Source: Owenia fusiformis
Taxonomy: Eukaryota; Annelida; Polychaeta; Sabellida; Oweniidae
Assembly (NCBI GenBank): GCA_903813345.2
Contig: CAIIXF020000005.1
Span: 21,083,375 to 21,147,374, forward strand
Length of the DNA: 64,000 nt
Reading direction: 5' to 3'
Position numbers and translations under genes: made by a program. Below, one piece after another: positions 6,227 to 63,416 of the stretch. Numbering within the stretch: the first letter of the stretch is position 1; each line of letters opens with the position of its first letter. The notes under the pieces were generated by a model. That model worked only from the letters and a program-made list of their open reading frames with translations. It had not been told where the DNA came from and did not search any database.

Positions 6227-8346
6227 CACGGGATGTCATCGCCTGATTTGGTCAATGTTAGGGAGCAGGTCGTTTTTACAATAAATTTCAATATTTTCAC
6301 ACAAAATATTTTTTTACTGAAAAACTGCTCATTCGCAGAGAAAATGTACTAGCACATGCAATGACAATGTCAATCACGCTTCTGTACGAAATTCGGCGGA
6401 AGTCTTTTATAATCTAATACGAAGTTACTAAAAAAGGCGCGAACGCCCTACACTCAAAATGATCGTTTTTCCATTATAACTTTTTAACGTAATTTAACGA
6501 AGGCTTCTAATTATTATCCAAGATAGTCTAAATACCGATTAAAATATTTCTTACTTCAAACAGATACGCCGTCTTTTATTCAATTTTTTAAAAAATAATA
6601 AAAAATAACTCTTGTCAATGTTAGGGAGCAGTCAATGTTAGGGAGCAAAATGATTTTATCAGAATATTAAAAATGTAGCAAATGGCCATTTAAAATATGT
6701 ATGGCATTTATAAACTAAACAATATTGTTTGAATGATTATTTTAAACCCCTTGCCTTAACAAAATTTAACAAAATCGATAAAAAAAATTGTTTTGCATTT
6801 TTGTTATCTTCAGAAAATGGACTCTCAAAGATTTTTGACGAAGGAAAGTTAATTATTATCATGGATAATCTCAGTACATATTGAAATATTTCTTACTTCA
6901 AACAGGTACACCTTTCTTTAATTTTTTTTAAATAATAAAAAATAAGTATGATCAATGTGGCGGAGCAAACAATGCAGTGGGGCGAAATGGTTTTATCAGA
7001 ATATCAGAGTAATTGGCCTTTACAAACATGTATGTCATTTATAAACTAGACAAGATTGTATGATTGTTTTATACCCCTTGGTATAAACCTTACAAGCATA
7101 CAGTATTGCTCAGCACAATATACACAATTTAACCAGATACAATAATTACATGACATCTCCCTTTATTCATGATATTGTATTTAAATAAATGAGCTCATCT
7201 TTGTATATAAATTATTGTTTTGAAATAGACCGGTAACACTTAAAGAAAGTCTAAAACTTTGTCCAATCATATTTTAGAAATGTTAGAATAATAAAACTTG
7301 TCCCATTGGTGTATACCGGGCTTTAGAGTATCATTAGCAAGTGGTACACATATAACAGAGATCGGTTATATACTGCATTGTCTGAGTATTGACAAATTGA
7401 AGTATACGTGTAAAAATCTACTATCATACATGTAACTGCGCAATGAGCCCTTCATAGCGTTTGTGCCAGCTATCAGGTGATACCCGGTCGTAAAGATAAG
7501 TGCGAGACTAACTCTCTTACTTTAATACTAGGAAAATATCAAATCATAGAACTGAAGGATGTCGGAGATTTCTCAAGCCTATATATCAGTTCAGATAATT
7601 TATCATCCACAATTTAGGATTGTGAACTGATGACATCATCAAAAAGTGTATATAACGATACACCCGGTCCATTCATTTACAGTTAGAGGTCAACGAATAA
7701 AGAAGGAATGGTTCGCATCTAAATATTTCTAAAACGAACGTAAACAGGATTTAGCTGAAAATAAAAAATGCAAAATAACCTTTTCAATGATTTTCTTACA
7801 ATTTTAACGCTTTCCTCCCCAAAGGGTATCAAATAATCATACAAACAAAATTGTTCAGTTTATAAATGCCATTCATATTTTAAATGGCCATTTGCTACAT
7901 TTTTAATATTCTGATAAAATCATTTTGCTCCCTAACATTGACTGCTCCCTAACATTGACAAGAGTTATTTTTTATTATTTTTTAAAAAATTGAATAAAAG
8001 ACGGCGTATCTGTTTGAAGTAAGAAATATTTTAATCGGTATTTAGACTATCTTGGATAATAATTAGAAGCCTTCGTTAAATTACGTTAAAAAGTTATAAT
8101 GGAAAAACGATCATTTTGAGTGTAGGGCGTTCGCGCCTTTTTTAGTAACTTCGTATTAGATTATAAAAGACTTCCGCCGAATTTAGTACAGAAGCGTGAT
8201 TGACATTGTCATTGCATGTGCTAGTACATTTTCTCTGCGAATGAGCAGTTTTTCAGTAAAAAAATATTTTGTGTGAAAATATTGAAATTTATTGTAAAAA
8301 CGACCTGCTCCCTAACATTGACCAAATCAGGCGATGACATCCCGTG
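6227..8346. mobile_element. CACG-ended foldback element with 5-bp TTATT duplication (family member 1)
   Basis: The termini are CACGGGATGTCATCGCC and its complement, flanked by TTATT (6222-6226, 8347-8351). The arms (about 6227-6715 and 7860-8346) are near-identical inverted copies. A signature GTCAATGTTAGGGAGCA occurs once near each end and as a direct doublet at the inner part of each arm (6618-6651; complement at 7924-7960). A diverged tandem copy of the inner arm follows at 6800-7060. No ORF; non-autonomous. Confidence 0.85.
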
Positions 8347-8466
8347 TTATTGATCACCCCTCGTATTACCATGATTGTTGTATAAATTTAGAAATTTTGA
8401 TTTCTTATGTCTCCTTTCTAACTGCCTCCAGGTGAAGCTACTGGATTAATCCTTTAGCTGACATAC

Positions 8467-8604
8467 CTAAACTCTTTTTGGCTGGAGTTAACTGTGTTTT
8501 GTTGGTGCTCCCTGGTGTGGTAGGTTTGTGTTTCAGAGGGCTGTACTCCTTTGTTGGTGTGTTCAAACTGTCTTGTAAGGTCAAGAGGGCATTACTGGCT
8601 TGGA
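8467..8604 (-). CDS. C2orf42: C2orf42-like exon 5 (Ser/Thr/Pro-rich linker)
   Basis: The acceptor ATTTCAAG precedes 8604. The strong donor TTTAG/GTATGT at 8467 keeps phase 1, so the gene should continue. Without splicing the frame would stop at 8438 (SAKGLIQ then stop), which would give a protein lacking the conserved C-terminal half. The residues are low-complexity (SPLKHKPTTPGSTNKTQLTP). I prefer the spliced reading. Confidence 0.7.
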
Positions 8605-11600
8605 CTTGAAATATCAAAAATATTTTTATAACATACACCACTTTCAACTCAACATGAAATGTTTTATTTGTACTTTAATTCCTTAACCTCTCAAAAATAT
8701 GTTCAATTATTTTTGAAATGCTTCTTTGAAAAATAATTCCCAGTGTACACCTTACCTACGCTATCGTCTTTCTTGCGTTTTTTCGCAGGTTCAGGTGCAG
8801 GTGTGTCACTATTATCCTGATCTATGATGATTGCAACTTCCTCTCCTTCATCCCCAACATTAGTATTGTCCTGGCTGGCTGCTGTTGTGTAGATAGACAG
8901 CAAGCGTCTCTCTGGAGCTAAAGAGTGACCAATATATAACATATGACTAAGACCTAACATTTTACACATTAGACTGAATGTTTTTAACCCTAAATTAACA
9001 TTTACTGTAGCTTTGTTTGTCAATTGGAACATATTTTAATTGAGCTAATTTATCACCATAATTAACATGCAAAATGTAACTACCTGCCATGTATTACAGA
9101 TGCCAAACACCAATGGCCGACAACAAAAATGTTGGAGACTATAACAGCAAGCTGACAAGTCATCACTTATGGTGGTGACATAAAAACTAAACGAATGAAA
9201 TAAAACCCTCAAAATCTAATGCAAGGATGCTTTAGAAGATCTTCCTTTGCTTCAAAATGACAATAAATATGTAACAGTAATTGGTAATTTGTTTTGATCT
9301 TAGAGAATCATTCTAAACATACAGAGTAATAATTTTTAATTAAATCACCTGAGGAGTCTAAATTGATGTAAAACTCAAATTCTTGAGCCAATTTTTCCTC
9401 ACTAGCAAAAGCACAGATGCAGGCATAAAAATGTACACATCTCTTCTGACACTCTTCTTTTGTAACATCTGTTTTATAAACCTGAAAATTAAAACAGAAT
9501 TTGATACACTTGATAGCATAAATATTTTAAGTTAACGAATGTGAGGTAATAATATTTTTTTAAATGGGACCATATTTTCTAAATGATGCAATGAAAAGCA
9601 AATGAAAATCCTAACAAATGTTTCCTCATTAATATTAACAGTGCAACAATTAGTGATGAGGGTCCATTCAACGATCATGGACCAGTGTAAAAATATATTT
9701 AAGTTTGGATATTTCATCAAGACTAACGTAGTGGATCTTAAAAATCTATAAGTGGGACTCCCTTTATAGAAGCTTTGAACTGAATTTACACTTCTTAATA
9801 CTGGAATTGATAGTTTATCCATACATTTTAAGAAAATAGGTATGTCGAATAATTTTCTCTCTACAGGCCTTGTTGCCCCTTTAATTAGACAAATAACATG
9901 TAAAATATTGTACAATAATAAAAGCAGTGTCTAAAAATATTAAATGGAGTTTAAAAAAACTACAAAGGAGGAGGGAAATAGCGCAACGGATTTGGACTAT
10001 GTTGGATTTTGGCCATTTTCTGAGGATTTAAACAATTACGTAATATGTTAGGCCAATGCATTACCTCCAGGAAAATCACTTCTAGAGATGATAAAATAAT
10101 TTCGACTTTGAGACAGGGTAGATGCAAACAACCCACCCACATGTTTTTTCTGAAATTTTTCCCAGATTTTTGACCCCTTCCATCCCTGCTTTTTTAATTT
10201 TTCTTGCATCAATATGTAGCGTTTTGACACATAGTTAATCACTTTGAAGGAATAAGTGATTCCTTCAGGGGTTTTAAAGATACCCATTATGGATGACCAA
10301 ACTTAGCTGAAAGCAATATTTCCCAATAACATGGGAAATATTGTTTTCCACTTTATCTAAAAGGAATCACTTATTCCTTTTAAGGGATTAACTGTGTGTC
10401 AAAACGCAACATATTGATGCAATAAAAATTAAAAAAGCAGGGATGGAAGGGGTTGAAAATCAGGCAAACATTTCAGAAAAAACATGTGGGTGGAGGTAAT
10501 GCATTGGCCTAACATATGCACCTGTTTAAATCCCCAGGAAATGGCCAGAATCCAACATACATATGACTGTCAAAATCTGTTGCGCTAACTTCCCTCCTCC
10601 TTTTCCTTTACAAACTTATTAAAAGATACGAATATTCAAAAAATTGAAAATCTAACCTTGAACTGTCTACAGCTGCATTGAAATTTGTGTTCAGGAACAG
10701 ATCGCTGTCTACTAGTTTCGTAAAATGTGAAATGAAGGAATCCAAGTGGATGCTTCCCACTAGGTTTACACTTTACAACCATAACGTTCTTAGTGACTCT
10801 TTGAACTAATGGGCCAGTTGTCTCTGTGGCAAGAAGCCATATAGCCTGTTTTGTTTCATTTGAAACTTGTAATGAATTTAAAATAGAGTTTTTTAAGGTC
10901 AGTGGCTCAGCTTCTGTTATACAGTTAATGGCACTTTTTATATGTGTACATGGAGGATGTATCTCAACCTCAAGGTCAGTAGGCTCTTTCTGATTGTTTG
11001 GATTATTAGGGCAGGATTCTGCATAACATCTTGCTGCAGCAGATAAGACCTCAGGGTCTACTGATTCTGCAACATTCCCATCCATATCCTGTACAAGGGG
11101 TAGCTCAACAAAGCTCCTGTAGTCTGGCCCTCTATCTCTTATTCTGGCAGAGAAAACCTGTACTGTAGAACCTGAAAATGGAATTTAATTTTTATCACAC
11201 CATCGGTGGGATATAGTTGTCATGATGACAGCACGATCATTATTGTTATTATCACACCATCGGTGGGATTAGTCGCCATGATGACAGCGTTATCGTGATC
11301 GTCCCCCTTTTTTTGTCATCACAATTTCAGGAAAACTGCTCATCCAATTTTCGTCAAATTCGCACATATGATAAAAGATATCAAGTTCTAGAGCTGATTG
11401 ACTTTTGGGTGGGGGCCATCTTGTTTAATGGCGGCCATTTTGAAGATTTTTTAATAAATCTTGTCATTGCCATTTCAAGGTCAAGAATTGCATTCTTCAG
11501 GAAAACCGCTCATTAAATTTTCTCCAAATTCACACACATGATAGAGGACCAAGATTTAGAGCTGATTTACTTTTGGGCAGCCATCTTGTTTTCTAGTGGC

Positions 11601-12226: not shown

Positions 12227-12239
12227 GGCAGATGTAAAC

Positions 12240-12430
12240 CTTTAAATCAGAACTATGAGTTTACTGTATGCTGTAGGTTTCTCTGATGAGGGTCATCATC
12301 ACTGTTCCTCAACTAGTTACTTTGATGAACTTCCTCAATACAAGTTTTTTGTTTTCTCGATTTAAACCTACTTAGAAGTCAAGTTGCAGATTATCATTTA
12401 GCACAAAGTTAGACAATATAGCAGGCCTGT
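12240..12430 (-). repeat. Copy of a dispersed repeat just upstream of the C2orf42 start
   Basis: The minus strand matches 19015-19200 (plus) through CTTGACTT.TAAG.AGGTTTAAATCGAG, CTAGTTG and GAACAGTGAT. A more distant relative is at 62950-63050. So the sequence next to the start codon is repeat-derived. Confidence 0.6.
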
Positions 12431-25472: not shown

Positions 25473-28400
25473 TAGTACTACAGCCAAGGCCATTTGTGTC
25501 CAAAACACCTAGATTCAATTTGACTTTAGATTCTTGTAGGGGACCCCAAGGCATGTAAAAAAAGTTTGTGAACCCCTGCAAAGCAGGCTCAAAAGTGCTG
25601 AGTCAGCAAATTTTATCATTTTCGAGTCAGAGTTTGACCATATGCTTGAAACTATTTAATATCTCATTTGAGGATGTTGCAATTATAATGAAACATTGTT
25701 AATATATCAATAATGCATATATGAAGAATTCCTGAAAGTTTGGGTCTTATCCAACAAAATTTGGTAGAGATATGGGATAATTTGTCCCTAAAAGTACATA
25801 AATTCTCTTCAAAACTTCTTGATCAGTGGATAGTTAATCAGTCATTTAAAAACAGTAAGGGCCTATGGTGTATAAGACCTGATTAAAAACTTCACTGATG
25901 ATGTTAGCAAATATTTCTTGCTTAAGTTTCAATAAAAAGTACAAGCATCTATTTTTCTGATTTTTCTCTTTACCTTCCCCTAAAAATTCAAGAAAGGGGG
26001 TGTGGCACATTACACTTCAGTTGTTGAACTTGTTGCTAGGGTCAAACAGAAAATGTGTATCATTATAGCAAAGAGTGTTATTTTAAATAAATCTTAACAC
26101 TATATGTGACATCATAATATGCTAAACATATTCATTATCTACCATTTTATATTTTTTTACAGCTTATCATTGCCATACCCCATAAAACCGTTTTGGGTAT
26201 GTGTTGTCAGCAATAGGAAAAACATGTATGTGTACTAATAACATTTTTCAAAATTGTATTTCAGATGCCATTCTATCCTAATGTTGTTCATGTAGTTGTG
26301 GTATGTTAAGGATGATATATGATGATAATATTTTATATTACGCTCCCAATCATAAGTTTTGTTACTGGAAGTCCACCTTTGAATCACTTATCAAAGCTTG
26401 TCATGCTGTTTGGCAATTTTAAACAAGACATCAAGCTTTTGAAATAAAGGAATAAGGAACAAAATCAAGGTTCAAACATTGATAGACCTTGATATGTAAT
26501 CATATGAAAACTTGCAATTGCCAACCTTATGGAGGGGGTGTATATGCTTTGTATTATATGTGTCATAAATTGTTTAGTTGTAGAAACCTGAAGCCAAATG
26601 AAATAATAGTGCTTTACATTCTCTCGAAGTGATCAATTCCATGGCACTGGGTTTGTTGACATGACTTATATGATATGTGACATTACGCGAGTTTGGTCCT
26701 AAGGCCAACATAGTCCAATGGCGCAGAATCCCACTTACCCCATCAAGTCCCACCATGCCATATCGAGTCCCACAATATCCCATGAGACCTTGTTAACTTT
26801 GCCCCATGGAGTCTCATCGAGTCCCTCCATATCCCATCCAGTCCCACGGAAATGATGTAATTTAGTTTAGAGGTTTTGTCGAGGTCATTTTAGCTGACAC
26901 ATCCCATGATCAAAAGTCCAACGATGCCCAATGGAAAGAATGAACAGGTCCATTCTCAATGGGGCTTCGTGGGACTTTGCCAAATGATACCCCATCGAGT
27001 CTCATGGGACTCAATGGGGCTTCATGGGGCAAAGTCCCAAGGAATCCAAAGGAATTCCATCGGGCAAAGCTCAATGTAGTCCAAAGAATTTCCATGAGGT
27101 CCCACCCAATGTTAAATCAATGGAGGTCCCACCATGTCTTATTGGTGTATGTTAGGCTTTAGCGAAGCAACTTCCTTTGTTTACATTCATCAAAACGTTA
27201 AAAGGAAAAATAGTCACAACTTTGTAAGAGCGTGATTATTTGGACTGATTTCACTTGTTTTACATGAACTGAGCTGGCCAGTGCCATTCATAATATCTTA
27301 AAATAAACTTTTTCTCCTGCATTCAATTCATGACAGAGGCACAGATTCCCAAATTTATTTACAAGCCAAGATGCATTGTAATAGAAAATATTTGGAAGCC
27401 AGTAGAAAAGTTAGGGGCCAACACTTTGGCTTGTAACCTCATGTTACAAGCCAAGAAAAAAGCAATTAAATTCCTGTAAAAACTTTATTAAAGTAAACAT
27501 TCAGAACCACTGTTCACATATCTCTGGTTCAGAGGAATTGGGCACTAGACAACACCTTGCTGGTCTCCCTCCTTTCAATTTCTAAAATTGAGTAGTATAT
27601 ACAGATTGGGGGCAAAGTGAGAATGCTTACAGTGAAACAAACAGCATACAGTACATTATGTGTGCCAATAGAGGGCGGCATATGCACCATAGGCACAAAT
27701 ACTCGTAATTTGAAAACCAAACATTTTCTGCTTAACTAAAAATTATGTAATTATCAGCTATATAATAGGTGTGAACACCTTTGCTGCTTCAGTGTTGCCA
27801 TAACGTTCACTTAAGAGAGAGCCTTTTTACATCAAGAGTGTAGAGTGCATTGTATGATTCAATGGGCAAGTTCTTATATGCAATGACATGACAGTTCCTA
27901 AATAAAACAGACAGTCTCCCCATGGCCTCTTTATTTAAAGATTTGACAATACCCATTGTTATTACTTTTTCTATGCTTTAAAATCAACACAGCTTTTTTG
28001 CGAATCTGAGAAATTTCGTGTTGTTTCAATGCTTCTAATTTAAAATTAGTATACCCGCTAATAAAGCTGCTCTTGTTGATGTTAATACAACGGGAAAGAT
28101 TGTTTGCTTCAATACAAACGTTGCAGAACATTTTGTACTCCTTGTAGTTCAGCCATGGACGGCAAAACAGCCACGACTGCAAGAATTTTCTTTTTTTTCT
28201 CCGACATTTTTCCAACAATTGTATCCGATAATAGTCTAACGAAGAACATAGTTATCTGCATTATGATTGGCCAAATCATTCATATCGCCAAAAAGTAGAT
28301 CAATCAAAACGTGAGACACAAAATATTAAAAGTACAAAATGGGGAGAAGTTCCCAGAATACATTGCGCATCAATCGCCTATCAACGATCTCAATTACATT

Positions 28401-30852
28401 CTTACCACTAAATTGATGCTGGGAAAGCACACTTTCGAAAAAATTGTAAATATCGATCAGCTGATTTAGCAAAAGCAGCATTAAATTCATGTGAAATCTT
28501 TGTCTTTTCACCAATTTTCATGATTGAAATGATAGGATAACAGGTATATTATAGTGGGAACTCTTGTACGCCAGGAATACGTGTAAATTTGATTTGTTTG
28601 GCGCCCGGGGCCAAAGTTAGGCGAATCTGGCGTCCTGGCGTCCTGGCGTGTGGGAATCTGTGGCTCTGATTCATGACCACATGTTACTACAGAATCCATA
28701 GGATCCTCGGGGATGAGCCATTCTATGGTAACACTTGGCCTTGGATTGAATGTCTTTAAGTTGTGAATAGGTGTATTATGAAGGGGGTTCCGTGATAACA
28801 TATGGTCTTGGAAACACAGATTCCAGAAGTCAAAAGTCAATCGGAGTGACAAAACATAAGTAATGCTTAATAACTGAGTGTGGATTGGTTGATCCCAAGA
28901 TATTATCAGTCAGTAGCTTATTACGTACTTTAACAGTTAGCAAGGAACAAAAACTTATGACTTATGACATCAGAAAGAGCTTATCATAAATAAATGAAAC
29001 TGGACAGAAACTTAATGAATAGTTCAAGAATACTTGACTGGTTGACTTAACTGCTAAAAGGTAAAGTGAAAATGCTATAACTTTTTTAATTTTTGATGCA
29101 AAATCATAATTTGCATACCCAATGAAACTTGAGGATGCTATCTAGCCATGGATTATAAATTGTACATTTTTACTTGAATAAAATATGTCACCAGCGTCTC
29201 ACTTAAACATGTGGTGTGCCATGAGAAATTAACATAATTTGCAAAATGTTCCTGAACTGATCCGGCCTGATGACCACAAAGCTAATAGTCCTGATGCAAT
29301 CCTTAGCGAGTATAGGGTATGGGTAGGTCTCCAGGAGATGGTTTGAAGGCACCCAATCTAAAAAAAATTGCCCACCTAAAGCTGGCAATTAAGACAGGTT
29401 GAAAGAAACTTAGCCAACGTTTTTTTTGGCCCACCCTGTATACAACGGATGTTACTTCGCTGACGCTTCTTAACTCTTCTATCTACAGGGATACAATTGT
29501 TTCCTGTACAAAGTACAATCAATTCCCTTGACACTATGTAAAGTATCGGGTGCTAGACTAGCGGTGAAACATTATCTCCAAATCCATAGGGACAATAGGG
29601 GCGTAGCCAGCTTTCTTTCGTAACAAAACATTCACATCTTGTTATGTTCTACAGACTACAACTAAACAATTTATGACATATATACAATGCGAAGTGTCAA
29701 AACTGCAACCAGCCTCTGAGTAACTCTGGCTCTTAATCATTTGGTGTTACACTTTGTTATTATATAGCTAATTATTTGCAGCAACAATAGGAGTCTTGTT
29801 GCAGTTTACATGGACCCTTTACTAGAAAGCATGTACACCCCCTCTATAAGTTTGGCAACTGGAAGTTTAAACCTTGATTATTTTCCTTATTACCATATTT
29901 CAGATACTTCGATTTCATATGCCAAAAATAAAAAAACTTTAATAAGTGATTCAAAGGGGTTCGAGTTGCCAAACTTATGATGGGAAGTGTTATCATTCAT
30001 AAACATAAACCATAACTACATGAACAACATTAGGAAAGAATGACACCTATAATACAATTTTGAAAAATGTTATTAATACACATGCACCATACATGTATTT
30101 CCAATTGCTGACCACACATACCCCAAACGGTTTTATGGTGTATGGCAATGATAAGCTGTAAAAGTATAAAATGGTAGATACTAGTAATGAATATGTTTAG
30201 AATATTATGATGTCACATATAGTGTTTAGATTTATTTAGAATAACACATTTTGCTATCATGATACACATTTTCTATTTGACCCAAGCAACAAGTTCAACA
30301 ACTGAAGTGTAAGGTGCCACGCCCCCTTTCTTGATTTTTTAGGGGAAGGTAAAGAGAAAAATCAGAAAAATTAGAAAAATAGATGCATGCACTTTTTATT
30401 GAAACTTATGCAAGAAATATTTGCTAACATCATCAGTGAAGTTTTTAATCAGGTTTTATACACTATAGGCCCTTACTGTTTTTTAAATGACTGATTAACT
30501 ATCGACTGATTAAGAAATTTTGAAGAGAAATTATGTACTTTTAAGGACAAATTATCTCTACCAAATTTTGTTGGATAAGACCCAAATTTTCAGGAATTCT
30601 TCATATATGCCTAATTGATATATTAATAATGTTTCATTATAATTGCAACATCCTCAAATGAGATATTAAATAGTTTCAAGCATATGGTCAAACTCCGATT
30701 CGAAAATGATAAAATTTGCTGACTCAGCACTTTTGACCCTGCTTTGCAAGGGTTCACAAACTTTTTTTACATGCCTTGGGGTCCCTTACAAGAATCTAAA
30801 GTCAAATTGAATCTAGGTGTTTTGGACATAAATGGCCTTGGCCGTAGTACTA
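25473..30852. mobile_element. 5.4-kb element with ~1-kb terminal inverted repeats
   Basis: 25473-26555 and 29815-30852 are inverted copies, starting TAGTACTACAGCCAAGGCC and complement TAGTACTACGGCCAAGGCC. ATA flanks both ends (25470-25472, 30853-30855), but the AT-rich flanks make the true duplication unclear. The interior holds a palindromic CCCCAT/CATCGAGTCCC stretch (26720-27130) and a zinc-finger ORF (27931-28218). Confidence 0.78.
27931..28218 (-). CDS. TTF/BED-like zinc-finger ORF, probably hAT transposase N-terminus
   Basis: Residues RKFLQSWLFCRPWLNY, KMFCNVCIEA, FISGYTNFKLEALKQHE match the N-terminal zinc finger of hAT-derived proteins of the ZNF862/KIAA1586 type (SW....PWL, MFC..C, G..NF....L..HE..S). 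The frame stops after 95 residues with no catalytic or dimerisation domain, and the final zinc-binding His is not seen. An ATG in another frame just upstream (MSEKK) suggests a 1-base shift at the start. It lies centrally in the 5.4-kb element, so it may be a relic of its transposase. Confidence 0.5.
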   Translation of the reverse strand: MLEKCRRKKRKFLQSWLFCRPWLNYKEYKMFCNVCIEANNLSRCININKSSFISGYTNFKLEALKQHEISQIRKKAVLILKHRKSNNNGYCQIFK

Positions 30853-45067: not shown

Positions 45068-45118
45068 GAATTACTGGTGAAACGTCGAAAATAAAACATA
45101 TTACTCTGAAGTAAATGA

Positions 45119-46143
45119 CACGCCCGGTGATCGTGAAAATGGGACGGAGGGGGGAGCAGGCAATTTCCGCTAGAAAATTCAACAAATCTGGTAAAATTAT
45201 TTTTTCAAGACAGAGTTTACGATTGAATTGCAAATTGAATAAGCGCATGGTATGATAAAATATGTTAGGTATTCTAGGATTATTTTTCAACCGATACTCT
45301 TTTAAGATATAAGATCTATTAAAAAAGGCGCAACGCAACCAACGTGCAAAAGTCAAAATTTTTGCTATAAATCAAGCAACAATGGACTACACGACCTGTA
45401 ATAAATACTTGTAAGTGATGTTATCATAACTAAATTAATGTCATTGCTGAATTTATAAAATAAGTTCCCATACGTAAAATAAAAAATAATCGAAAATAAT
45501 TAAAATGGGACGGAGGGGGGGGAGGGGACGGAGGGGGGGAGTAATAATTCTATAAAGTGAAACAACTTCACACGAATTCTTGTATTTGAAAAATGAACTC
45601 ATTAACTTAGTAAGAAACTGGATGATATACCCCTGGAGACTGAAAAATGGGGACATTTGGAGTAAAAGGACTTAAAGTCGCGAAACATCTCTAATCATGT
45701 CTTATATACATATTGCTCCCCCCCCCCTCCGTCCCCTCCCCCCCCTCCGTCCCAAATTCATTATTTTCGATTTTTTTTTTATTTCACATATGGAAACTTA
45801 TTTTATAAATTCAGCAATGACATTAATTTAGTTATGATAACATCACTTACAAGTATTTATTACAGGTCGCCCAGACCATTGTTGCTTGATTTATAGCAAA
45901 AACGTTGATTTGTGCCTGTTGATGGCTTTGCGCCTTTTTTAATAGATCTCATACCTTAGATGCGTATCGTTTCAGAAAAAATCCCAGAAAACCTAACAAA
46001 TTCTACCATACCGTGCGCCTATCCATTTAGCAATGCAATGGTAAACTTTTTCTTGAAAAAATAAATCTTCCAGATTTGTTGAATTTCCTAGCAGAAATTG
46101 CCTGCTCCCCCCCTCCGTCCCATATTCACGATCACCGGGCGTG
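45119..46143. mobile_element. CACG-ended foldback element with 5-bp AATGA duplication (member 2)
   Basis: Ends CACGCCCGGTGATCGTG and complement; AATGA at 45114-45118 and 46144-46148. Arms of ~420 bp (45119-45540 / 45720-46143). The motif GGGACGGAGGGGGG sits near each end and as a direct doublet at the inner arm ends (45506-45540, 45718-45753). No ORF. Confidence 0.88.
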
Positions 46144-46148
46144 AATGA

Positions 46149-49560: not shown

Positions 49561-50390
49561 TAATTGGCGAAATGCTAACTGCTTATCGCAGGGGGAGAGA
49601 ATGCAAAGATATTCTGAATTTTGAAGCACTGTGATCAGAGAATAATATGATACAGGGGGTCCAAAGCATAACGAATTGCAAAAAATTACAAAAACAAAAA
49701 TCCCATGTTAAATCGCCATGGGGATCTTCCTGGAATTTTCTGTCTAAGCGCTTTAAAAAGTATTTGTAGGAGTTATGCTATAGTACAAATATCACAGAAT
49801 GATCAGCATTAAAGATCTATACAAGTAGTTCTGCTCAGATTTTTAAATTGAAGTTTTAAACAAAAAATGCTAAAATAACTCTGTCTTGTAAAAAGTTCAA
49901 ATCCGCCATCTTGAATTATGATGTCACAATGACACTCTTTTGCATATTCAAATTTTTCAAGAAAAAAACACATAAAATATGGGTCTATGAGCCTTGCTTC
50001 CTTCTCATAGTCTCCAAGGAGTTAATGAATGTATATGTCCTATGTAAAACCTATACAAATAAACTGACCCATATTGAACTACAGCCCAGGATATAATCAC
50101 GCGGTAGTATCTCTTCGGGACGTATCGAAACCTGACTCCGTCCCGAAAAACCGTTAATTTGAATTTAAAACCTACCCCAGTGTTTGAAAATCAAGGATTG
50201 TGAGTTTCACACTTCACCGTTTTTCTTCAAACTTGTTCCGTACAAAGCTTCACAGAAATACCTTTCAGTCGATACATTGTTTTTGTGTACAAAGTACCTC
50301 GTTTTAGCGGCGTTTTGGTCCCCAGCTGTGAGATAAAGCAAATTTTCATAACTTTCAACTGTAAGTCAAGTTATCTCGCCAGTCTTTTAC

Positions 50391-52094
50391 CCCCCAAGTG
50401 AAAAAAGTCAATGGGAAAATATTGACAATAAATAGGTAATACTCTATTAATTCTTAGCTAACAAATACCTAAAAAATTTATCATGCAAATTAGAGAGAAT
50501 TACGTTAATAATTAGGTGTTAATAATAAGGTATTGTTAACATTCAACGCTCATGTAGAATATTGACTGATTATCAAATGAAAATTACATTGTAACAATAA
50601 GGTAAAATTAGAAATCTAATAATCATGTATTGATTATCTTCCAATAATAAGCTATATGTTAACAGAGTATTACCTAAATATTGTACATATTTATTGTGGT
50701 AATATTCTCTAATTTGCATGATAAATTTTTTAGGTATTCGTTAGCTAAGAATTAACAGAGTATTACCTATTTATTAGCTATTTAAAACCTATTTGTTGCA
50801 TTACTCTTACCCAAGATGCATTATGGTCTTCGAAATTTATTTTCTACTATAAGAATTAACCCAAAACATTAAATAATATGTAAAATTAGGTGGGTAGGGA
50901 CACACAAATTCGAAGTAAATGTGTAACGTTATGTAATTCGCGTGAATATCCAAATCTGGCCATGCAAAGCGTATAAATTATTTCATGGCAAAGTCTAAAG
51001 TTTTTTAAAAATTCTCTTGCAAAAACTATACAGATTTTGTCAAAAATCTCCCACAAAAGTACCACTTTTTGCAGAATTTACCGCAAAAAACTATTGCTTT
51101 TATTAGAAAAAAACTGGAGATAATTCGTTTTATTTCAAATCTACCGTTAAAACTCCAGTTGTTTCAAAATTTACCTCAAAAACTCCTGATTTTTAAAAAT
51201 CTACGGCGAAAACTACCAATTTTTTTAAAAACTACCAGATTTTGGAAAAATCTCCCGTAAAAGTACCACAATTTTTGGAAATCTCACGCAAATTGTTCAT
51301 TTTAGGTTGGCCCTGGGTATGTAAGATGATATAAGCAATTATTATGGGACATCACTGGTAATTTTACCCCATTCAGAATTGTCCTGAAGGCCAGAAGGCT
51401 CACAGTTATTGAAGGACCCTCTAGGCCTCCAGCAGTATTTATATCTTCATAATCTTTATAAAATACCTTATATTTTTACTGCATGGTACAATTGGTCATA
51501 CACAACACATTTATGCTTGACCACTTTGACTGTATGAATAGAATTAAAATTTAGCCTTTATAAATTCACAAAGAAAAGAAGATTTCCCCATCTAAACTGG
51601 AATAACACAGCAATACTTACATTTTACCTCTCACAAAGTAGACATGCAGAATGTTCAAGTATGTCAGTAACTTCTGAATCTATATTTGATTGGTCATTTT
51701 CATACTATTGTTATAAAATCATAAAATTACCCAAATCTCTTACAGTTGAACATTCTTTGTCAGCCATTTTTCTTTTGGTTGAAAAAGAGCGGGAAAGTTA
51801 ATATTTTGCTAATACTCACTGCCACATTTCTTATAAGTCCAATCTTAACAATTAGCTAATTTTTATCACCTATGGTAGCAAGGATGACAAAAAGTTACCC
51901 AATTATTCAAAGAGCATTATAACATAGTTGTTAAAATAATAAATAGGTGTAATAAATAGCTATTTATTGGCATTCAACTTTCATTGATTTAATGCTCATT
52001 TAACAAATAGGTTAACTTTTATCAAAATGCATAATTATTAGACCAAAGTTAACCAATTATTACATGAGAATTGCCATTTCTTTTTACTTGGGGG
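50391..52094. mobile_element. Insertion with CCCCCAAGT ends inside the left arm
   Basis: Comparison with the intact opposite arm (complement of 55780-55830: TCTTTTACCCATTCTCGC) shows the exact empty site. Ends CCCCCAAGTGAAAAAAG and complement CCCCCAAGTAAAAAG. The C-run makes target duplication undecidable. Interior: an inverted pair (50415-50520 / 50690-50790, AACAAATACCTAAAAAATTT) and ~50-bp AAATCTCCCGCAAAA-type repeats at 51020-51300. Confidence 0.72.
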
Positions 52095-53268
52095 CCATTC
52101 TCGCCCATAATTTCAGAATGGACTCCCATTACGACCTTCCATCGCTACGTCTTGATTTTTGGTCATCAAACGCAGCAGTTTCTAAATCATCCACACATCT
52201 CTTCAAATTTGACCAATACGTCCCGTCATCTTCCACTACGCCCCGCCGAGTCTATCACTATACACGTAGAGTTGCATTCTAAAACAATTTGTCCATCGAT
52301 GTGTCCGTTTGTAGGTTGCCATTGTCGATTCTAAATACCAATCGGATTGTGTTTTAAGATTTACCCATTCTTGTCCATTTTCAATATACCTATAATAGGG
52401 TGGTCCAAAATCTCCCTAAAATTTAGATTTCCCGATATTGCAATATAAAGATTTAATTACTGAACAATTGAAAATATTTTTAAAAAACGTTTAAAGTGCC
52501 CTATCCTTGAAAAAATGTTAAAATGCGAAAGGATGGGTGACACCGTCACATCACCGTGATGTCAATTATATTATTTTCAGCATAACGTTAGAAACATGTA
52601 TCATTTTATATGGTACACGTTTCATAATGTAATCCAATGGAATCATACAGAAGAAAGGTTGACACACAACAGTTAAAATCTTTATATTACATTATCAGAC
52701 CAAGTCAGTAGATGTTGTTTATATACCAATTAGTGTTGTATGATGATGCATTCTTTATATGAATCTAGAAACGTTTTTGTGCCAATATTGCTCAATTTTG
52801 ATAACATCTCCGTTATTTTGAAATTAAGCGTGGCAAAGTTTCCCGATGGATTTAGCTAAAAAAAAGTGGTGCCTGTAGGGTTATTGAAAATCTTACATGA
52901 TGAAGAAAAAATACATATTCCTGAAATAAAACAGTTTAATTTTGAGTTATAAACCATTTATGAAAACGGCATATTTGTCAAAATTACCAAAACTTCAATT
53001 GAGACGCGTGGCAAAATTTCCCAGGGGTCTAGAGTGGAAATATTTGTACCAAGAGTCAATTTGTAACTAGAATCTATCAGATGACAGATTTTTGGAAAAT
53101 TTTGCAGATTTGGACAACCCTAACCTATAACTTTGTTGAACCTGAAGAAACGTATCAACTTTTTGTTAAATAAACACACACACACACCGGCTTTGTTAGT
53201 ACTTTGCCTTGGATGTCATACAGTACATTTACACTGTGGCATGATGATGAACTTAAAAAATATGTATA

Positions 53269-54746
53269 CACGCCTAACCATCGCGTAAGCAGGCGTCACC
53301 GTACAGCGTCAAAAAATACAGTAGTACAGTTTTCTGTATGGTGACGAAAATTAACTGAGTTGAAGCAAAAACTATAATGAGGGTTTTAAAAATATTAATT
53401 AGATGAAAATAAATACGATTTCGGGTGTAATGAAAACAGCATTCTCTTAGGAATGGTTTTAACTTTCTAATTATGATAAAAGTTTTTCGAGCACTGCTCG
53501 GATTTTTTCTGACTGGATCGGCCCACATAATCGACTCGAGAGAAAAATGGTGTTTTTTTCACTTTTCGTTTGGTTATTATTTTCCCTGTCGTCTGAGAGT
53601 ATGGATTATTTTTATGAGAATATGTATTTGTTATCTACACATTTTAGAACAGATGAATATTCGGCAAATAATCATTCAGTGTATTTATTTAAAAAACTGT
53701 ACAGTGACGCATCAGCTGTACGGTGACGCTTCTTTAGATTTTATGAAGTGCTCTAAGCTTACTGTTCGAACAAGAGGTAAAGAAGCATCAGATCTACATG
53801 TACATTATCACTGGTAAGTATCAAGCGAAGGTTACAGCCGTCACCTTCGCATTTAAGATGGCGGGCAGGAAGTATTAATTTCGATATTTTTAGTTTTCAA
53901 GGAATTAACTATTTGAAAGTTGACGTAATGCTTTGGTATCATTTGAACTAAACCAGGCTTTTCTCATATGACTAACAAAGATAGCCTACACAGCCATCTT
54001 TACCCCATGCAAGATATTGCATCTTTCATCCTAAAAAGTCACACGTGCAAGATGAGATTTACTTGTGACATCCCTTGTTTTAAAACATCAATAACATAGC
54101 AACAAGAGAGTTTTTGGTTTCATGATCTTTACCGTATCATACATTTCCAGTAACCTTCCATTAAGCTGTGGAAGATATCGTTGAACTGTAGCGCCCATGC
54201 ACTATATATGAACAAATGATCATACTCCAGAGTTTCCATTTCATACAATCATAGTCTCATTCAGTTCATCAAAGCATAGCGTCACCGTACAGCTGGTGCG
54301 TCATCGTACAAATTTGATCTTTTTTAAATATACATAATGAATGGTTGTTTGCTGAATCTTCGCCCGTTCTAAAATGTGTAAGTAACAAATACATATTCTC
54401 ATAAAAATAATCCATACTCTCAGACGGTAGGGAAAATAATAACCAAACAAAATGTGAAAAAACAACCTTTTTTCACTCTGGTCGATTATGTGGGCCGATT
54501 CACTCAGAAAAAATCCGAACAGTGCTCGTAAAACGTTTATCATAATCAGAAAGTTAAAACCATTTCTAAGAGAATGCTGTTTTTATTTCACATGAAATCG
54601 CATTAGTTTTCATCAAATTAATTTTTTTAAACCCTTGTCATAGTTTTTGCTTCAAAGCAGTTAATTTGCGTTACCGTACAGAAAACTGTACTCCGCTATT
54701 TTTTGACGCTGTACGGTGACGCCTGCTTACGGGATGGTAAGGCGTG
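53269..54746. mobile_element. CACG-ended foldback element with 5-bp GTATA duplication (member 3)
   Basis: Ends CACGCCTAACCATCGCGTAAG and complement CACGCCTTACCATCCCGTAAG; GTATA at 53264-53268 and 54747-54751. Arms ~450 bp. The motif GCGTCACCGTACAG occurs near each end and as a doublet at inner arm ends (53699-53730, 54279-54310). The arm ORF (LRVWIIFMRICICYLHILE) is in both arms and has no known domain. Confidence 0.88.
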
Positions 54747-54798
54747 GTATAGTCATGAAAAAATGTTCTTTGTGATATAATATTGTATAGTATCATTC

Positions 54799-55008
54799 CA
54801 GGCCCGTAGCCAGAATTTTCCAAGGGGGGGGGGGTCGTTTTTCTAAAAAATTCTAGGGGGGGTTCACTTTGGCAAATATGGCCAAAAATCACTCAAAAAT
54901 TAGTCAAAATGGTGAAAAACTGCATGATTTTGAAAGAAATTTTGGCCAGGGGGGGGGGGGGGGGGTTCGCCCGAACCCCCCGAACCCCCCCCCCTGGCTA
55001 CGGGCCTG
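54799..55008. mobile_element. CAGGCCCGTAGCC hAT MITE, second copy
   Basis: Same ends and interior as 36632-36822, with longer G-runs. Flanks CATTC / TATTC: a 5-bp duplication with one change. Confidence 0.82.
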
Positions 55009-56051
55009 TATTCTGATACGTATTACATGTTTATGTTTAGTGCATAAAATTCATAGCCAGATCAATAATTCGGAGAGAATACGCTGGACGATAGAATATT
55101 AAAAACTATAAAAACATTCTTCATAGAATTAAGCAAATAGTGTTATTATCATTTAAGTAGTAACTGCATATATGTTTAAAACCACTCTGTTTAAATACAG
55201 GTAAATAAATAAATATGATGCAATGAAAATTGAAGCTTTCTGTCGAGAGCAATAGTCATCAGAATAGTATAGCGTTTTTTCTTTTACATGTTACTTTTTG
55301 TACATCATTGATTGATCCGCTCTAATCTGCCCTCGGCCGATAAATTATAAATTATTTATGTTGAACATTAGCAAAACAAGATTCCAGATTTTATTGTGTT
55401 TCAAACCAGACACTTGGTTTCCTCACAAAATCAAATACAGGACAATTGCATATAATTAAAGTTAAAAAGCAACATCTTCACAAACATTTAAATTATCAAT
55501 TTCATGCAATCAGTTTTAGTTATACTCCGTATGTATGCTAAACTTAAGACTGGTGTTAAATAAGAATCGACCAAGGCAAACCTATGTGAAATTACACAAC
55601 GATGAACAAAATGTTTTAGAATACAACTCCACGTTTGTAGTCATAGACTCGGCGGGGCGTAGTGGAAGGTGACGGGACGTATTAGTCAAATTTTAAGACT
55701 GTGTGGATGATTTAGAAACTGCTGCGTTTGATGTCCAAAAATCAAAACGTAGCGATGGAAGGTTGTAATGGGGGTCCATTCTGAAATTATGAGCGAGAAT
55801 GGGTAAAAGACTGGCGAGATAACTTGACTTACAGTTGAAAGTTATGAAAATTTGCTTTATCTCACAGCTGGGGACCAAAACGCCGCTAAAACGAGGTACT
55901 TTGTACACGAAAACAATGTATCGACTGAAAGGTATTTCTGTGAAGCTTTGTACGGAACAAGTTTGAAGAAAAACGGTGAAGTGTGAGACTCACAATCCTT
56001 GATTTTCAAACACTGGGGTAGGTTTTAAATTCAAATTAACGGTTTTTCGGA

Positions 56052-57432: not shown

Positions 57433-57880
57433 ATGGCCGTAGCCAGGGGGCCTCACCCCCCTCCCCCTTGCCAAATATTCGTTCAAAATCATGCAGTTTT
57501 TCACCATTCTTAGCACTTTTCGCATGATTTTTTTGCCATAACTGTCAAAAAGCTCCCCCCTACTGGCGGATTAGGGCCCGCCCCACCCCCTTGGGTGGGC
57601 CCAGAAAAAAGGCTTTAAGGCCCCAAAAAGTCGGGCTTTTCGGTCATTACTGGGCCTTTTAAGGCCTTATTTTTTAAATTCAGGCCAAATTTTGAAGACA
57701 ATGGGCCTCAAAATTTCAAAATTTGGGCCCACTTTGCGTTTTAGGGGCCCAATTTTTTCTCTGACCTGAAATTTGGGCCCCCCTCCTTGTTGGTTCCCAG
57801 ATCCGCCCCTGCCCCCTCTTGGCATAATCTCCCCCTTGGTAAAACCACTCCCCCAGGTTAATCCAGGATACGGGTCTGTA
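57433..57880. mobile_element. Decayed CAGGCCCGTAGCC MITE holding a CAGGGGCGGATC MITE
   Basis: GGCCGTAGCCAGGGGG at the left and CAGGATACGGGTCTG at the right frame the outer copy. The inner 57561-57811 ends in TACTGGCGGATTAGGGCC and complement CAGGGGCGGATCTGGG, with GGGCCC-rich interior. Confidence 0.68.
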
Positions 57881-58078
57881 TTCTTAGACGAGATTGTTCA
57901 AGAACATAAGGTAGACATAAGTGCCACCTGTTAAAAGCTAGGAGATCTTTTCTAAGTTATTAAGTCATCAATCAGCAGACTGGTAATTGTATCCCCCACC
58001 CACTTCAAACTCCATACACTAACATACTATTACAATTTTATCTGTGTTTATTTGACTGTAGAAGGTGTACATTCATAG

Positions 58079-60062
58079 CATTGAATTGCATTTCATTGCA
58101 TTGTATTGTATTGTATAGCACATCATTGTATTGTATTGTACTGCATTTTATTGTATTGCACTGCATTGTATTGTATTGCACTGCATTGTATTATATTGCA
58201 TTATATTGTACTGTATTGCACTGTATTATATTATACTGCACTGCATTGTACTTTATTGCACTGCATTGTATTGTACTGCAGTGTACTACATTGTATTGCA
58301 CTGCATTGTATTGTATTGCACTGCATTATATATGTTCTATTGCATTATATTGTACTGTATTGCACTGTATTATATTGCACTGCATTGTACTTTATTGCAC
58401 TGCATTGTATTGTACTGCAGTGTATTACATTGTATTGCGCTGCATTGTATTGTATTGCACTGCATTATAATGTATTGCACTGTACCACATTGTGTTGCAC
58501 TGCATTGTATTACACTGCATTGTTTTGAATTGCACTGCAATATATTGCACTGCAATATATTGCACTGCAATATATTGTATTGCATTGCATTGCACTGCAT
58601 TGTATTATATTGCACTGTATTGTATTGCACAGTATTGTATTGCATTGTATTGAATTACACTGCATTTTATTACACTGCATTGTATTTTATTACACTGCAT
58701 TGTATTCTATTGCATTATATTGTACTGTATTGCACTGTATTATATTATATTGCACTGCATTGTACTTTATTGCACTGCATTGTATTGTACTGCAGTGTAC
58801 TACATTGTATTGCGCTGCATTGTATTGTATTGCACTGTATTATAATGTATTGCATTGTACCACATTGTGTTGCACTGCATTGTATTACACTGCATTGTTT
58901 TGAATTGCACTGCAATATATTGCACTGCACCATATTGTATTGCATTGCATTGCAGTGCACTGCATTGTATTATATTGCACTGTATTGTATTGCACAGTAT
59001 TGTATTGCATTGTCTTGAATTACACTGCATTTTATTACACTGCATTGTATTTTATTGCACTGCATTGTATTGTACTGCAGTGTACTGTATTCTATTGCAC
59101 AGCATTGTATTGAATTGCACTGTATTGTATTTTATTGCACTGCATTGCACTACATTGTATTGCACTGTATTGAACTGCGATGTATTGTATTGCACTGTAT
59201 TGTATTGCACTGCACTGAACTGCGATGTATTGTATTGCACTGTATTGTATTGCACTGCACTGTATTGAACTGCGATGTATTGTATTGTACTGCATTGTAT
59301 TGCACTGTACCACATTGTATTGCACTGCATTGTATTGAAATGAACTACATTGTATTGAAATGAACTACATTGTAACTGTATTGCATTTTATTGCACTGCA
59401 TTGGACTACATTGTATTGCACTGTATTGAACTGCGATGTATTGTATTGCACTGCATTGTATTGCACTGTACCACATTGTGTTGCACTGTATTGTATTACA
59501 CTGCATTGTTTTGTATTGCACAGCAATATATTGCACTGCACAATATTGTATTGCACTGCATTGCAATGCACTGCATTGTATTATATTGCACTGTATTGTA
59601 TTGCACTGCATTGTATTGCACTGTACCACATTGTATTGAACTGCATTGTATTGAAATGAACTACATTGTATTGCACTGCACGGCATTGTTTTGCATTGTA
59701 TTGCACTGCACGGCATTGTTTTGCATTGTATTGCATTGCACTGCATTGTATTGCATTATATTGCACTGTATTGTATTACATCGTATTGCACTGCATTTTA
59801 TTGTATTATATTGCACTACATTGTATTGTATCATATTGCACTGCATTTTTTGCATCATATAACACTGCTTTGTATTGCATCATATTACACTACATTGTAT
59901 TGCATCATATTGCACTGCATTGTATTGCATCATATTGCTCTGCATTGTATTGCATCATATTGCACCGCATTGTATTACATCATATTGCACCACATTGTAT
60001 TGCATCATATTGCACTGCATTGTATAACATCATATTGCACTGCATTGTATTGCATCATATTC
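58079..60062. repeat. 2-kb pentanucleotide array (TTGYA-type)
   Basis: Almost pure 5-bp periodic ATTGT/ATTGC/ACTGC with higher-order copies: the 58580-58960 block repeats 58220-58560. From about 59770 the unit becomes TTGCATCATA. Many frames on both strands stay open for long stretches because stops are scarce in the unit; none is a gene. Confidence 0.95.
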
Positions 60063-60714
60063 CGTATTGACCATTTCGTTACAGTTTTATTACATAAAAT
60101 GTTATTTATAAGATTATAATTTTCAAACATTGAAAATATTTTATACAATATCAATTAAAAGATATGAAATGGCCCAAAATAATATATTTTCAATGGAACC
60201 CTTTGCAAGGGTCACTTCAACATAACGCAACGTGTAATCTGTATGCATACGCCCTCTTTTAATGAACATTATCTTTGAAACCATATTAGAACTCGAATCT
60301 GATAAAAGTGCGCATCATGGTCCTGGTTGTGCTGCGCGCTAGAATCAGGAAATCTCAAAGTTCTCCTCGTTAGAGCCATCAATATTATCCAAAATTGTCA
60401 TTTCGCTGGTTCACTGCGCAGTCTTTCGAAAAAAATCAAATTCGTGGTGCTACGAATTTTTATTCGTTATTTATTCACAGATAATCATTTTTTCATCGCG
60501 CACTGAATGCCGAAATTTCTGCGCACTTTATTTTAATTAACTTTGCAAAACGCGGCCCCTGTAATTCATTCAGTGCGCGATGAAATCTATCTGACTGGGC
60601 CGCGGTGTGTGATATCACTCCCATGTTAAAACTCCATTCGATTTTGAATTATGCGCATATCCCCTATAGCTTTCCGTACCCAAGAGATACTACCGCGTGA
60701 CAGAGGTTTTTTAA

Positions 60715-60846
60715 AACGTGCCACTATTGTTGACGGACGGACGGACAGACGGACGGACGGACGGACGGACAGACGGACGGACGGACGGACGGACAGACAG
60801 ACGGACAAGTGAGTGTTTGCAAAAGCTCACCATGTGAGCTAAAAAG
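60715..60846 (+). repeat. GACG run, hairpin and A-run module
   Basis: TTGTTGACGGACGG, ~70 bp of GACG/CAGACG units, then AGCTCAC-CA-TGTGAGCT and AAAAAG. The same module ends the elements near 797, 18952 and 34340. It directly follows the right end of the CACG composite. Confidence 0.75.
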
Positions 60847-60964
60847 TATTCAAAAAATTAAAACAAAATCCCCCCCAAAATAGATAAAATCAAGATAAAC
60901 CTTTTATTTCATTATCAAGATACTTTTTTAAAATCAACCAAAATTTCCTTTGTACAATAACAAT

Positions 60965-61426
60965 CAGGCCTCGCGCTTAACTTTTTTTTATCAGGTAGTT
61001 GTTTCACTACTTAGTGACTTTTCCAGGTAGCTATTTCAGAGAAGCAGGTATAGTGATGATTTTGATGAAAGTTGTCTTTATTCTTATGACTTAGCAGCAC
61101 AATAATAACATATTGCATTGTAAATAAATGTATACTTACCCAGATATTGCTGTTTTAAGGCAATTTGCATACACATTTCATTGACCGTTAAAGAATGAAG
61201 TTGACTATCATTGGTCTGCTTTCGCGCAATTGTAAAAGTTATGATTCAGCTCGAACAAGAATTAACAACGATCAGCTGATCGGCAAATCAATCGAAAATC
61301 TGTATATTTTCACATGGAGAGGTACTAGTGAAGTTAGCTAGGCTAGTTGGAGGAATTGACAAGTAATGTTTTTGGAAAAACAGGTAGCAAATCACTACCT
61401 TTTAGCAATGCTAATTTCGAGGCCTG
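60965..61426. mobile_element. hAT-like MITE with 5-bp ACAAT duplication
   Basis: Ends CAGGCCTCGCGCTTAAC and complement CAGGCCTCGAAATTAGC; ACAAT at 60960-60964 and 61427-61431. 462 bp, no ORF. Confidence 0.82.
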
Positions 61427-61577
61427 ACAATATTGAGAGACCTAAACATGTTGTGTTTATGTCGTTTTGTTCCAATTAGGTTCGGAAAGATGTTTCATTT
61501 CACTCTGGAAACATGATACCAAGAACAAAAAAACAAGTGTTTGATGTGTTTTCTAAAACAATATAGATGAAAGTATA

Positions 61578-62477
61578 CGAGGGTTGATCATAAAGGTCTC
61601 ATAATATCTCTCTAATTTCTTTATTTTTCAATATATTCTAATGAAATTTTCACAGAATATGCAGCATAGAATGTCTTATTAATTCAGCAAAAAAATATTT
61701 AGTTTAACAGAAATATTAAATAAGAAATTGTTGCCATAGTAACGGGAAATCAAGGCACCCGGGGCAGATAAAAATAATTGAGAGAATGAGCTTAATTAAC
61801 CATGTTTACATACATAATAAACTCTCATGAATTACCAAACACGTTAAAATGTTAACTTGAATATGTTGTAAAGTGCTGCAGAGATCTTCAGAAAAATAAG
61901 ATTCATACTGATAAAATGTTATGTTAAGTTTGTAAGATCCTCTGGTTAGACTAAACATGATCTAAAACAAATATATTGCTAAGATATCAACAAAATTACC
62001 AGATTACACCCTGTGTATGGTCTGTACATATTAAAAATGAACTAAAGGGGCAAAATCAATTTTCCTCGGGATATCTGACAGAACAGTCACGGGGTCTAAC
62101 AGTCACTTCTAATGAAGCATAACCATCATCCATTATGAGATCATACAATTCACATGACCATTATAATAGTTCACAACAGTCAAGAGCCCATATTGTTTGA
62201 CAATTTAATGTGTTTGATAGCTCATTTGACAACTCATTATGTATTTAAACATGGTTAATGGGGGCTATTCTAGCTAGTTTTTTTTATTTGCCCCGGGTGC
62301 CTTGATTTCAAGTTACTATGACAACCATTTCTTATTTAATATTTCTGTTATTCTGAATATTGTTTGTTGGATTAATAAAACATTCCATGCTGCACATTCT
62401 GTGAAAATTTTATAGGAAAATATTGAAAAAATAAAGAAATTAGAGAGATATTATGAGAACTTTATGATCAACCCTCG
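61578..62477. mobile_element. mariner-related MITE with long inverted arms
   Basis: Ends CGAGGGTTGATCATAAAG and complement, flanked by TA (61576-61577, 62478-62479). Arms reach ~240 bp (through GCACCCGGGGCA / TGCCCCGGGTGC). Termini resemble those of the mariner at 4231-8363. Confidence 0.85.
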
Positions 62478-62678
62478 TATACTAGTATATATTTTTAAAT
62501 TATATTGTTACCATTGAAAAGATGACCATTCAATTGTCGATGTGTTAAATTTTTAGATTTTTTTATGACTGGTTTAAGAGAAACGTGTGTTCAAAAAGTT
62601 CTCCATATCGATACCACTCCTTTTGAAGGTATTAAAGCATTACTTTGGGCCTAAGTGATTGATTTTATTGTGTTTACA

Positions 62679-62708
62679 CATGGGCTTTCAACTAGTTGAA
62701 AGCCCATG
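62679..62708. repeat. Perfect 30-bp palindrome
   Basis: CATGGGCTTTCAACT followed directly by its complement. Same arms as 20952-20983. Confidence 0.8.
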
Positions 62709-62877
62709 GTTTACACTATTATCACTCACCAAAATGAAACAATTTTCTATCGTTGTCTGAATGGAATAGAGTGTAAAATGCATGGTGATTACGTTTTAAT
62801 CGCCGAATTGACTTCAATTTTTCATACACCTGGCTTATTTTTCGTTCGAATGAAGACTGTTAAACTGATTCACCTAT

Positions 62878-63416
62878 CACTGCTACCCACCTAGTTACAC
62901 AGACGTATCGTCAGTGTATCATGGCGGAACTACTTCCGGGACTAGGTTTCGGTAAGATTTTTTTATTTCCCGATTTACACCTACTTATAAGTCACATTGT
63001 GGATAATAATTTGGCTCGAAGTTAAGGAAGATAGTCTAGTTTGAGAATGTGTCGATGGTTTTAGGTTTTATATGTTAACGAAGACACAATTCACGTATTT
63101 AGTCCCTCGCTTTTGTTACACTGACAAACGACCAATATCAGTGTAATATTGGCAATATTAATGCCGATCGTCAGTGTAACAAAAGCGAGGGACTAAATAT
63201 GTGAAATGCGTCTTTGTCAACATACCAAACCTAAAACCATCGACACATTCTCAAACTAGACTATCTCCCATAACTTCGAGCCAAATTATAATCCACATCG
63301 TTACTTATAAGTAGATGTGAATCGAGAAATAAAAATATCTTACCAAATTCAAATCCCGGAAGTAGTTCAGCCATGATACACTGACGATACGTCTGAGTAA
63401 CTAGGTGGGTAGCAGT
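62878..63416. mobile_element. CAC-ended foldback element with 5-bp CCTAT duplication
   Basis: Ends CACTGCTACCCACCTAG and complement; CCTAT at 62873-62877 and 63417-63421. The arms (62878-63125, 63170-63416) are near-perfect inverted copies. Each arm holds ATGGC(G/T)GAACTACTTCCGG followed by a GGTAAGAT donor-like site. Inner ends carry TTGTTACACTGAC and its complement. Confidence 0.85.

Follow-up and report, generated by a model that had tools for sequence, protein, structure and literature searches.

CAC-ended elements of Owenia fusiformis as probable non-autonomous DNA transposons, with a candidate source protein carrying a YqaJ-type nuclease

Four elements with long inverted repeats lie in a 64,000-nucleotide stretch of the Owenia fusiformis genome (hereafter the window; C5:21083375-21147374 of the 498-Mb assembly), each representing one family. 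In our judgment, it is probable that all four are non-autonomous cut-and-paste transposons, and that family 1 was derived by internal deletion from a two-gene autonomous parent encoding a large transposase-like protein. The elements are ordinary as non-autonomous copies; the unusual part is their likely source, in which a YqaJ domain and a probable DDE core would be combined in one protein.

Ends, Duplications, and Arms of the Window Elements

CAC...GTG termini and exact 5-bp target duplications were confirmed at all four window sites, as had been claimed from the sequence alone. The features are located as follows:

6222..6226, unstranded, left target duplication TTATT of family 1
6227..8346, plus strand, family 1 element of 2120 bp, internal-deletion derivative, arms 6227-6753 and 7820-8346
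8347..8351, unstranded, right target duplication TTATT of family 1
45114..45118, unstranded, left target duplication AATGA of family 2
45119..46143, unstranded, family 2 element of 1025 bp, arms 45119-45539 and 45721-46143
46144..46148, unstranded, right target duplication AATGA of family 2
53264..53268, unstranded, left target duplication GTATA of family 3
53269..54746, unstranded, family 3 element of 1478 bp, arms 53269-53739 and 54268-54746
54747..54751, unstranded, right target duplication GTATA of family 3
62873..62877, unstranded, left target duplication CCTAT of family 4
62878..63417, unstranded, family 4 element of 540 bp, foldback almost throughout, arms 62878-63130 and 63165-63417
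63418..63422, unstranded, right target duplication CCTAT of family 4

The boundaries proposed in the sequence-only reading hold for elements 1-3, whereas element 4 ends at 63417 and had been drawn one base short, at 63416. The arms measure 527 bp in family 1 (98% identity), 421-423 bp in family 2 (88%), 471-483 bp in family 3 (86%), and 253 bp in family 4 (90%); the earlier estimate of approximately 250-490 bp suits elements 2-4 and understates element 1. No coding frame was present in the four elements, the longest stop-to-stop frames being 56, 84, 127, and 51 aa for families 1-4, respectively, in agreement with the earlier statement that they have no ORF. An inverted-repeat scan of the window returned 48 pairs, of which 25 were listed, and 11 pairs outside the four elements were examined at up to three best boundaries per pair; CAC ends with a 5-bp duplication occurred in 0/11.

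Genome-Wide Copies and Target Sites

A genome-wide search at up to one mismatch finds 108 family 1 ends, 54 in each orientation, against 0 for the reversed control pattern. The 100 of these 108 places that were listed resolve into 45 two-ended pairs and 10 single ends. Extraction of these copies confirmed the duplication for family 1, in that an exact 5-bp duplication flanks 45/45 two-ended copies (window copy included, among the matches listed), with 32 different duplication sequences among the 45 pairs. Three of the 10 single listed ends proved to be two-ended, two of them with a 5-bp duplication; the third, L060, has no matching duplication, and the last base of its right end is altered. 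Chance as the source of the 5-bp duplications was rejected on the basis of the 45/45 family 1 pairs and the 0/11 other inverted-repeat pairs.

The joined flanks of the 45 pairs form an A+T-rich and near-palindromic target. Within the duplication, the middle base is A or T in 44/45 and base 5 is T in 31/45, while A or G stands just outside it in 40/45; the G+C content is 18% in the duplications versus 29% in the flanks.

The ends of the other three families are likewise repeated in the genome at up to three mismatches, with 837 ends in family 2 (425 + 412), 295 in family 3 (146 + 149), and 443 in family 4 (226 + 217), each against 0 for the reversed control; the duplication of each of these families was read in one copy, that of the window. 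Among their listed copies, the longest lie at C3:31641459-31643892 (family 2), C2:15143000-15146645 (family 3), and C6:23115592-23119060 (family 4).

Family 1 as Internal-Deletion Derivatives

The 45 family 1 copies are 583-4674 bp long. Placed in one orientation and aligned to the longest two, they represent one parent with differing internal gaps; an origin of family 1 as independent foldbacks was rejected on this alignment. The left breakpoint is known in 34/45 copies and corresponds to 30 distinct junctions, with an overlap of 1-12 bp at the breakpoint in 24/34 copies (20/30 junctions); the four largest filler values (L011, L022, L026, and L035) belong to copies with a second break or an insertion. 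In the window copy, the junction is at element position 1069-1071 (window 7295-7297), in common with three other copies. The left-end identity has a median of 99.8% and a minimum of 98.1% in 42/45 copies, with L030, L031, and L048 excluded beforehand as broken or rearranged. The window family 1 element is a recent internal-deletion derivative that keeps long terminal inverted repeats, instead of a foldback of undefined make as first described. In P elements, such deletion derivatives are known to result from interrupted gap repair. Every copy examined lacks the middle of the family 1 parent, and the assembly yielded no family 1 parent with its transposase. Activity could be tested on the young, near-identical copies, and the many deletion junctions constitute a record of excision-gap repair.

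Relatedness among the Four Families

The sequence-only reading held that the four sequences differ apart from their first bases; this does not apply to families 1 and 2, the arms of which have 61% identity across 227 bp (E=2e-5 and 2e-4) and which are, as judged from this similarity, related. CACG-N7-ATCG recurs at the left ends of families 1-3; in a shuffle test of the sequence behind CACG, 61/200,000 shuffles gave any 4-mer at one shared place within the first 33 bases of the three families. For family 3, a common origin may be indicated by this end motif; for family 4, it may be indicated by CAC and the 5-bp duplication. In family 4, ATCG is absent at position 12 and the pairwise search gave no similarity to families 1-3. 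Such features of family 4 would agree with unrelated sources for the four families, in which CAC and 5 bp coincide by accident, at least in family 4; given the arm sequence common to families 1 and 2, the motif common to families 1-3, and an end triplet and duplication length common to all four, we regard such a coincidence as unlikely. The earlier view of non-autonomous DNA transposons of one type, marked by CAC ends and 5-bp duplications, is supported.

Longer Relatives and Their Genes

A C2H2 zinc-finger exon is present in the long copies of family 1, and a DNA search with this region returned 12 places, of which 10 at ≥95% identity all fall within family 1 loci, and two at 68% are designated element A and element B. 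Element A spans 10,192 bp with repeats of approximately 615 bp, CACGGGGTGCCATCG ends, and the duplication ATTGA; element B is a deletion derivative of A's kind with the duplication TATAA. The terminal repeats of A and family 1 are 62-63% identical and their C2H2 proteins 53% identical, with a dN of 0.35 and a dS that was not computable and was taken as saturated. In addition to the C2H2 gene, A carries two minus-strand exons that are also present in the family 1 copy L023. A Pfam search of the first 9.1 kb of A in all six frames gave zinc fingers and two matches below the cut-off only, an Rfam search of L063 gave no match, and comparison of A with the proteins E and F, described below, revealed no YqaJ or core part in A.

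Two further observations were made at this locus (L063/L064). Frames that precede the C-terminal exon on the minus strand of A (~1700-3230), one of which starts MGRTRRKSR, show no similarity to E or F that could be detected, nor any match in Pfam, and one additional stretch among them is conserved in the family 1 copy L023. Separately, L064:3703-4015, 2.6 kb beyond A, holds an isolated end that belongs to a relative of family 2 (81% over 250 bp).

With A's minus-strand gene as the query, element E was found on C7. It measures 11,066 bp, with the duplication ATTAA, a 68-bp inner repeat at 98.5%, outer bases CAAGGTGGGCAT / CACCGTGGTCTG, and the right end CACCGTGG; its left end is CAA, not CAC. 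Because this boundary was picked by seeking CAC and a flanking duplication next to the repeat, it carries less independent weight than the counts for family 1. Element E contains a large multi-exon gene and, near one end, a C2H2 gene, in a gene order that differs from that in A. The exons of the large gene are open, with GT/AG splice sites assigned by eye, except for the stretch between the third and fourth large exons.

The E protein has seven strong further loci in the genome and one weak locus (C4, E=6e-4), and three of the seven strong relatives have frames of 1221-1467 aa. Besides F, the strong relatives lie at C11:10097066, C11:19850425, C5:40982362, C1:5492258, C6:5365874, and C3:22033980. 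F (C5:4848167) is an intact frame of 1467 aa with no stop, and matches the viral-recombinase-type nuclease domain YqaJ (PF09588) with 26.5 bits against a cut-off of 22, the domain occupying F 426-571. Among the 46 matches of a genome-wide YqaJ search, three of the seven strong E relatives exceed the cut-off (C11:10097078, F, and C6:5366335); the profile detects YqaJ neither in E nor in the other four of the seven, and since it does not detect YqaJ in E, the domain there is assigned through alignment to F, which proceeds through the YqaJ region at 31% identity over 424 aa (E=5e-55). The 7.5 kb around F showed no CAC ends accompanied by a 5-bp duplication.

A C-terminal exon starting RDH-x-FD is common to E, F, A, and the family 1 copy L023. 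In searches of small sets, this exon of E matches that of F at 37% identity (E=2e-10), that of A at E=5e-8, and that of L023 at E=2e-5; through it, the window's family 1 is physically connected to the large protein. Families 3 and 4 are not linked by sequence to A, E, or F, and the E, F, A-gene, and finger queries gave no match in the window, where the lowest E was 0.15. Longer relatives with a candidate transposase (A, E, and F) were found elsewhere in the genome, in support of the earlier suggestion of a source outside the window.

The Candidate Catalytic Core

The E and F proteins are 32% identical. Their invariant positions, which are many, include D213, in the context S-x-D-x-K-K followed by G-x-IDL; D800, in the context FDGQ; D1250xxH1253; and E1422. 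The D, D, DxxH, and E may be the catalytic residues, for which invariance between two sequences is weak evidence, and YqaJ would then sit between the first and second D of the large protein. Of the features of DDE cut-and-paste elements, terminal inverted repeats and a duplication of fixed length were found, and a triad is proposed from two sequences only.

The assignment of the large protein to an RNase H-like fold is weak. PF21787 matches the second-D region of E with 18.7-21.7 bits, below the cut-off of 24.6, and matches none of the seven strong E relatives, F included. When the proposed first-Asp segment was joined to the RNase H segment of E, the score was 20.9 bits, as compared with 20.8 and 20.9 for two control segments and 21.7 with no segment; the equivalent joined segments of F gave no match to PF21787. 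Searches of the PDB by sequence with E4, F, and an E+F profile gave no match, and the E+F profile gave 236 pattern matches in viral contigs, none of which was confirmed. THAP had no match in F, seven E frames, part of E's first large exon, or A's first 9.1 kb, coverage of the E and F N-terminal exons being partial.

Frames of 2362-2378 aa at C3:16789085-16791562, C331:11949-14417, and C486:31968-34436 match both PF21787 and YqaJ, and constitute another pairing of YqaJ with a P-like part; there, YqaJ follows the RNase H part, the reverse of the order in E.

Comparison with Known Superfamilies

V(D)J recombination arose from Transib and RAG-like (RAGL) elements, which are jointly marked by CAC ends and 5-bp duplications. 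These features are described for protostome RAGL elements (PMC7204232) and could place the elements here among the non-autonomous members of Transib or RAGL. However, the protostome RAGL end consensus given there, CACTWMCAAACKTYKBB with AAA at positions 8-10, is unmatched beyond CAC by all four families and by A and E, in line with the earlier remark that the ends depart from the Transib heptamer; family 4 is the nearest (CACT) and departs at positions 5, 7, 9, and 10. The targets are A+T-rich here (18% G+C in duplications, 29% in flanks), the genes inside the related elements are not RAG-like by Pfam, and the Pfam RAG1 profile (PF12940) has 0 matches in the genome, which is no proof given that 14 controls are equally silent. 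Membership in Transib or RAGL is, in our judgment, very improbable. If unrelated enzymes do make such ends, then assignment from ends alone would be unsafe.

Membership in the P superfamily in the narrow sense has several points in its favor: deletion derivatives resemble those of P elements, E has its weak PF21787 match, and DxxH stands between the second D and the last E in E and F, an arrangement of D, D, DxxH, E that resembles P/hAT/Kolobok-type transposases. The target duplication of the P superfamily is 8 bp, whereas it is 5 bp here (45/45). Galileo, a P-superfamily element with long foldback-like repeats in the relevant section of PMC3573991, has 7-bp duplications, which again differ from the 5 bp of the present elements. 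Further differences are the YqaJ domain in the large protein and the C2H2 partner gene, and P-like genes at five other places in the genome reach 72-81 bits with PF21787 versus 19.7 for E, with F not among the matches. A Galileo-like or THAP9-like member of the P superfamily is distinctly improbable on this evidence.

The large protein could alternatively be an accessory nuclease, with the true transposase encoded by another gene, as in ISL2EU, in which YqaJ occupies a second ORF, next to that of the DDE transposase (PMC4482050). ISL2EU and the present elements are alike in encoding a YqaJ domain, but F has YqaJ and the D, D, E residues in one ORF of 1467 aa, and the duplications of PHIS elements, as far as their excerpted description goes, are none or 1-4 bp and not 5 bp. 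In E, moreover, all frames over 190 aa belong to the large gene, the next being a 185-aa antisense frame and a 182-aa zinc-finger frame, and it is the large protein that has the conserved D, D, DxxH, and E; an accessory role is improbable in our estimation, and the large protein itself would be the transposase.

Kolobok duplications are TTAA. KolobokP and KolobokD, in the partial descriptions used for comparison, are animal transposons with an added nuclease and a C/DxxH-type motif, and differ in that their added nucleases are His-Me or DEDDh. None of RAGL, ISL2EU, and Galileo fits all features, and the unnamed superfamily or branch considered at the outset is retained as a possibility, with families 3 and 4 connected to it by ends and duplications only. 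It is tentatively conceivable, though we would not yet expect it, that a separate animal superfamily of cut-and-paste transposons exists, resembling Transib/RAG by convergence in its CAC...GTG ends and 5-bp duplications, and having an RNase H-like DDE enzyme with YqaJ (PD-(D/E)XK) inserted between the first and second catalytic Asp and a C2H2 end-binding partner. A pairing of YqaJ with a P-like transposase was not found described among the listed open-licence papers, compared by title, opening of the abstract, and term counts, a scope that excludes Repbase and is no proof of novelty.

Proposed Origin and Mechanism

Two genes would have been present in the autonomous parent. One, with multiple exons, would encode a large protein consisting of an N-terminal region, a YqaJ-type nuclease, a putative RNase H-like DDE core of a P/hAT/Kolobok-like kind, and the part from the conserved C-terminal exon with RDH-x-FD; the other would be a C2H2 zinc-finger gene. 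In family 1, the YqaJ and core parts would have been located in the lost middle of the parent. The large protein, perhaps aided by the zinc-finger protein, would bind the long ends and then excise the element, which would be joined to an A+T-rich, near-palindromic target through a 5-bp staggered cut; the roles given here to the nuclease and the finger protein are putative. Interrupted repair of the excision gap would leave deleted copies that move in trans.

One enzyme class may mobilize all four families. A protein of the E/F kind likely moved family 1, plausibly moved family 2, and may or may not have moved families 3 and 4. If a second nuclease is indeed part of the transposase, the manner in which strands are cut or processed would become a testable question.

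Other Structures Nearby

At L059 (C8:37953952-37962952), 128 bp of a family 1 end, identical to the family, runs into unrelated sequence, and a 671-aa frame beyond this end resembles, by eye, a Helitron-type helicase. In the window, two large inverted-repeat structures are without CAC ends, one of approximately 5.4 kb at 25473-30852 (outer arms 96%) and one of approximately 5.9 kb at 50143-56050 (outer arms 99%). Window positions 58000-60000 hold a long array of short tandem units with a spacing of 10 or 15 bases and a strong AT skew of -0.26.
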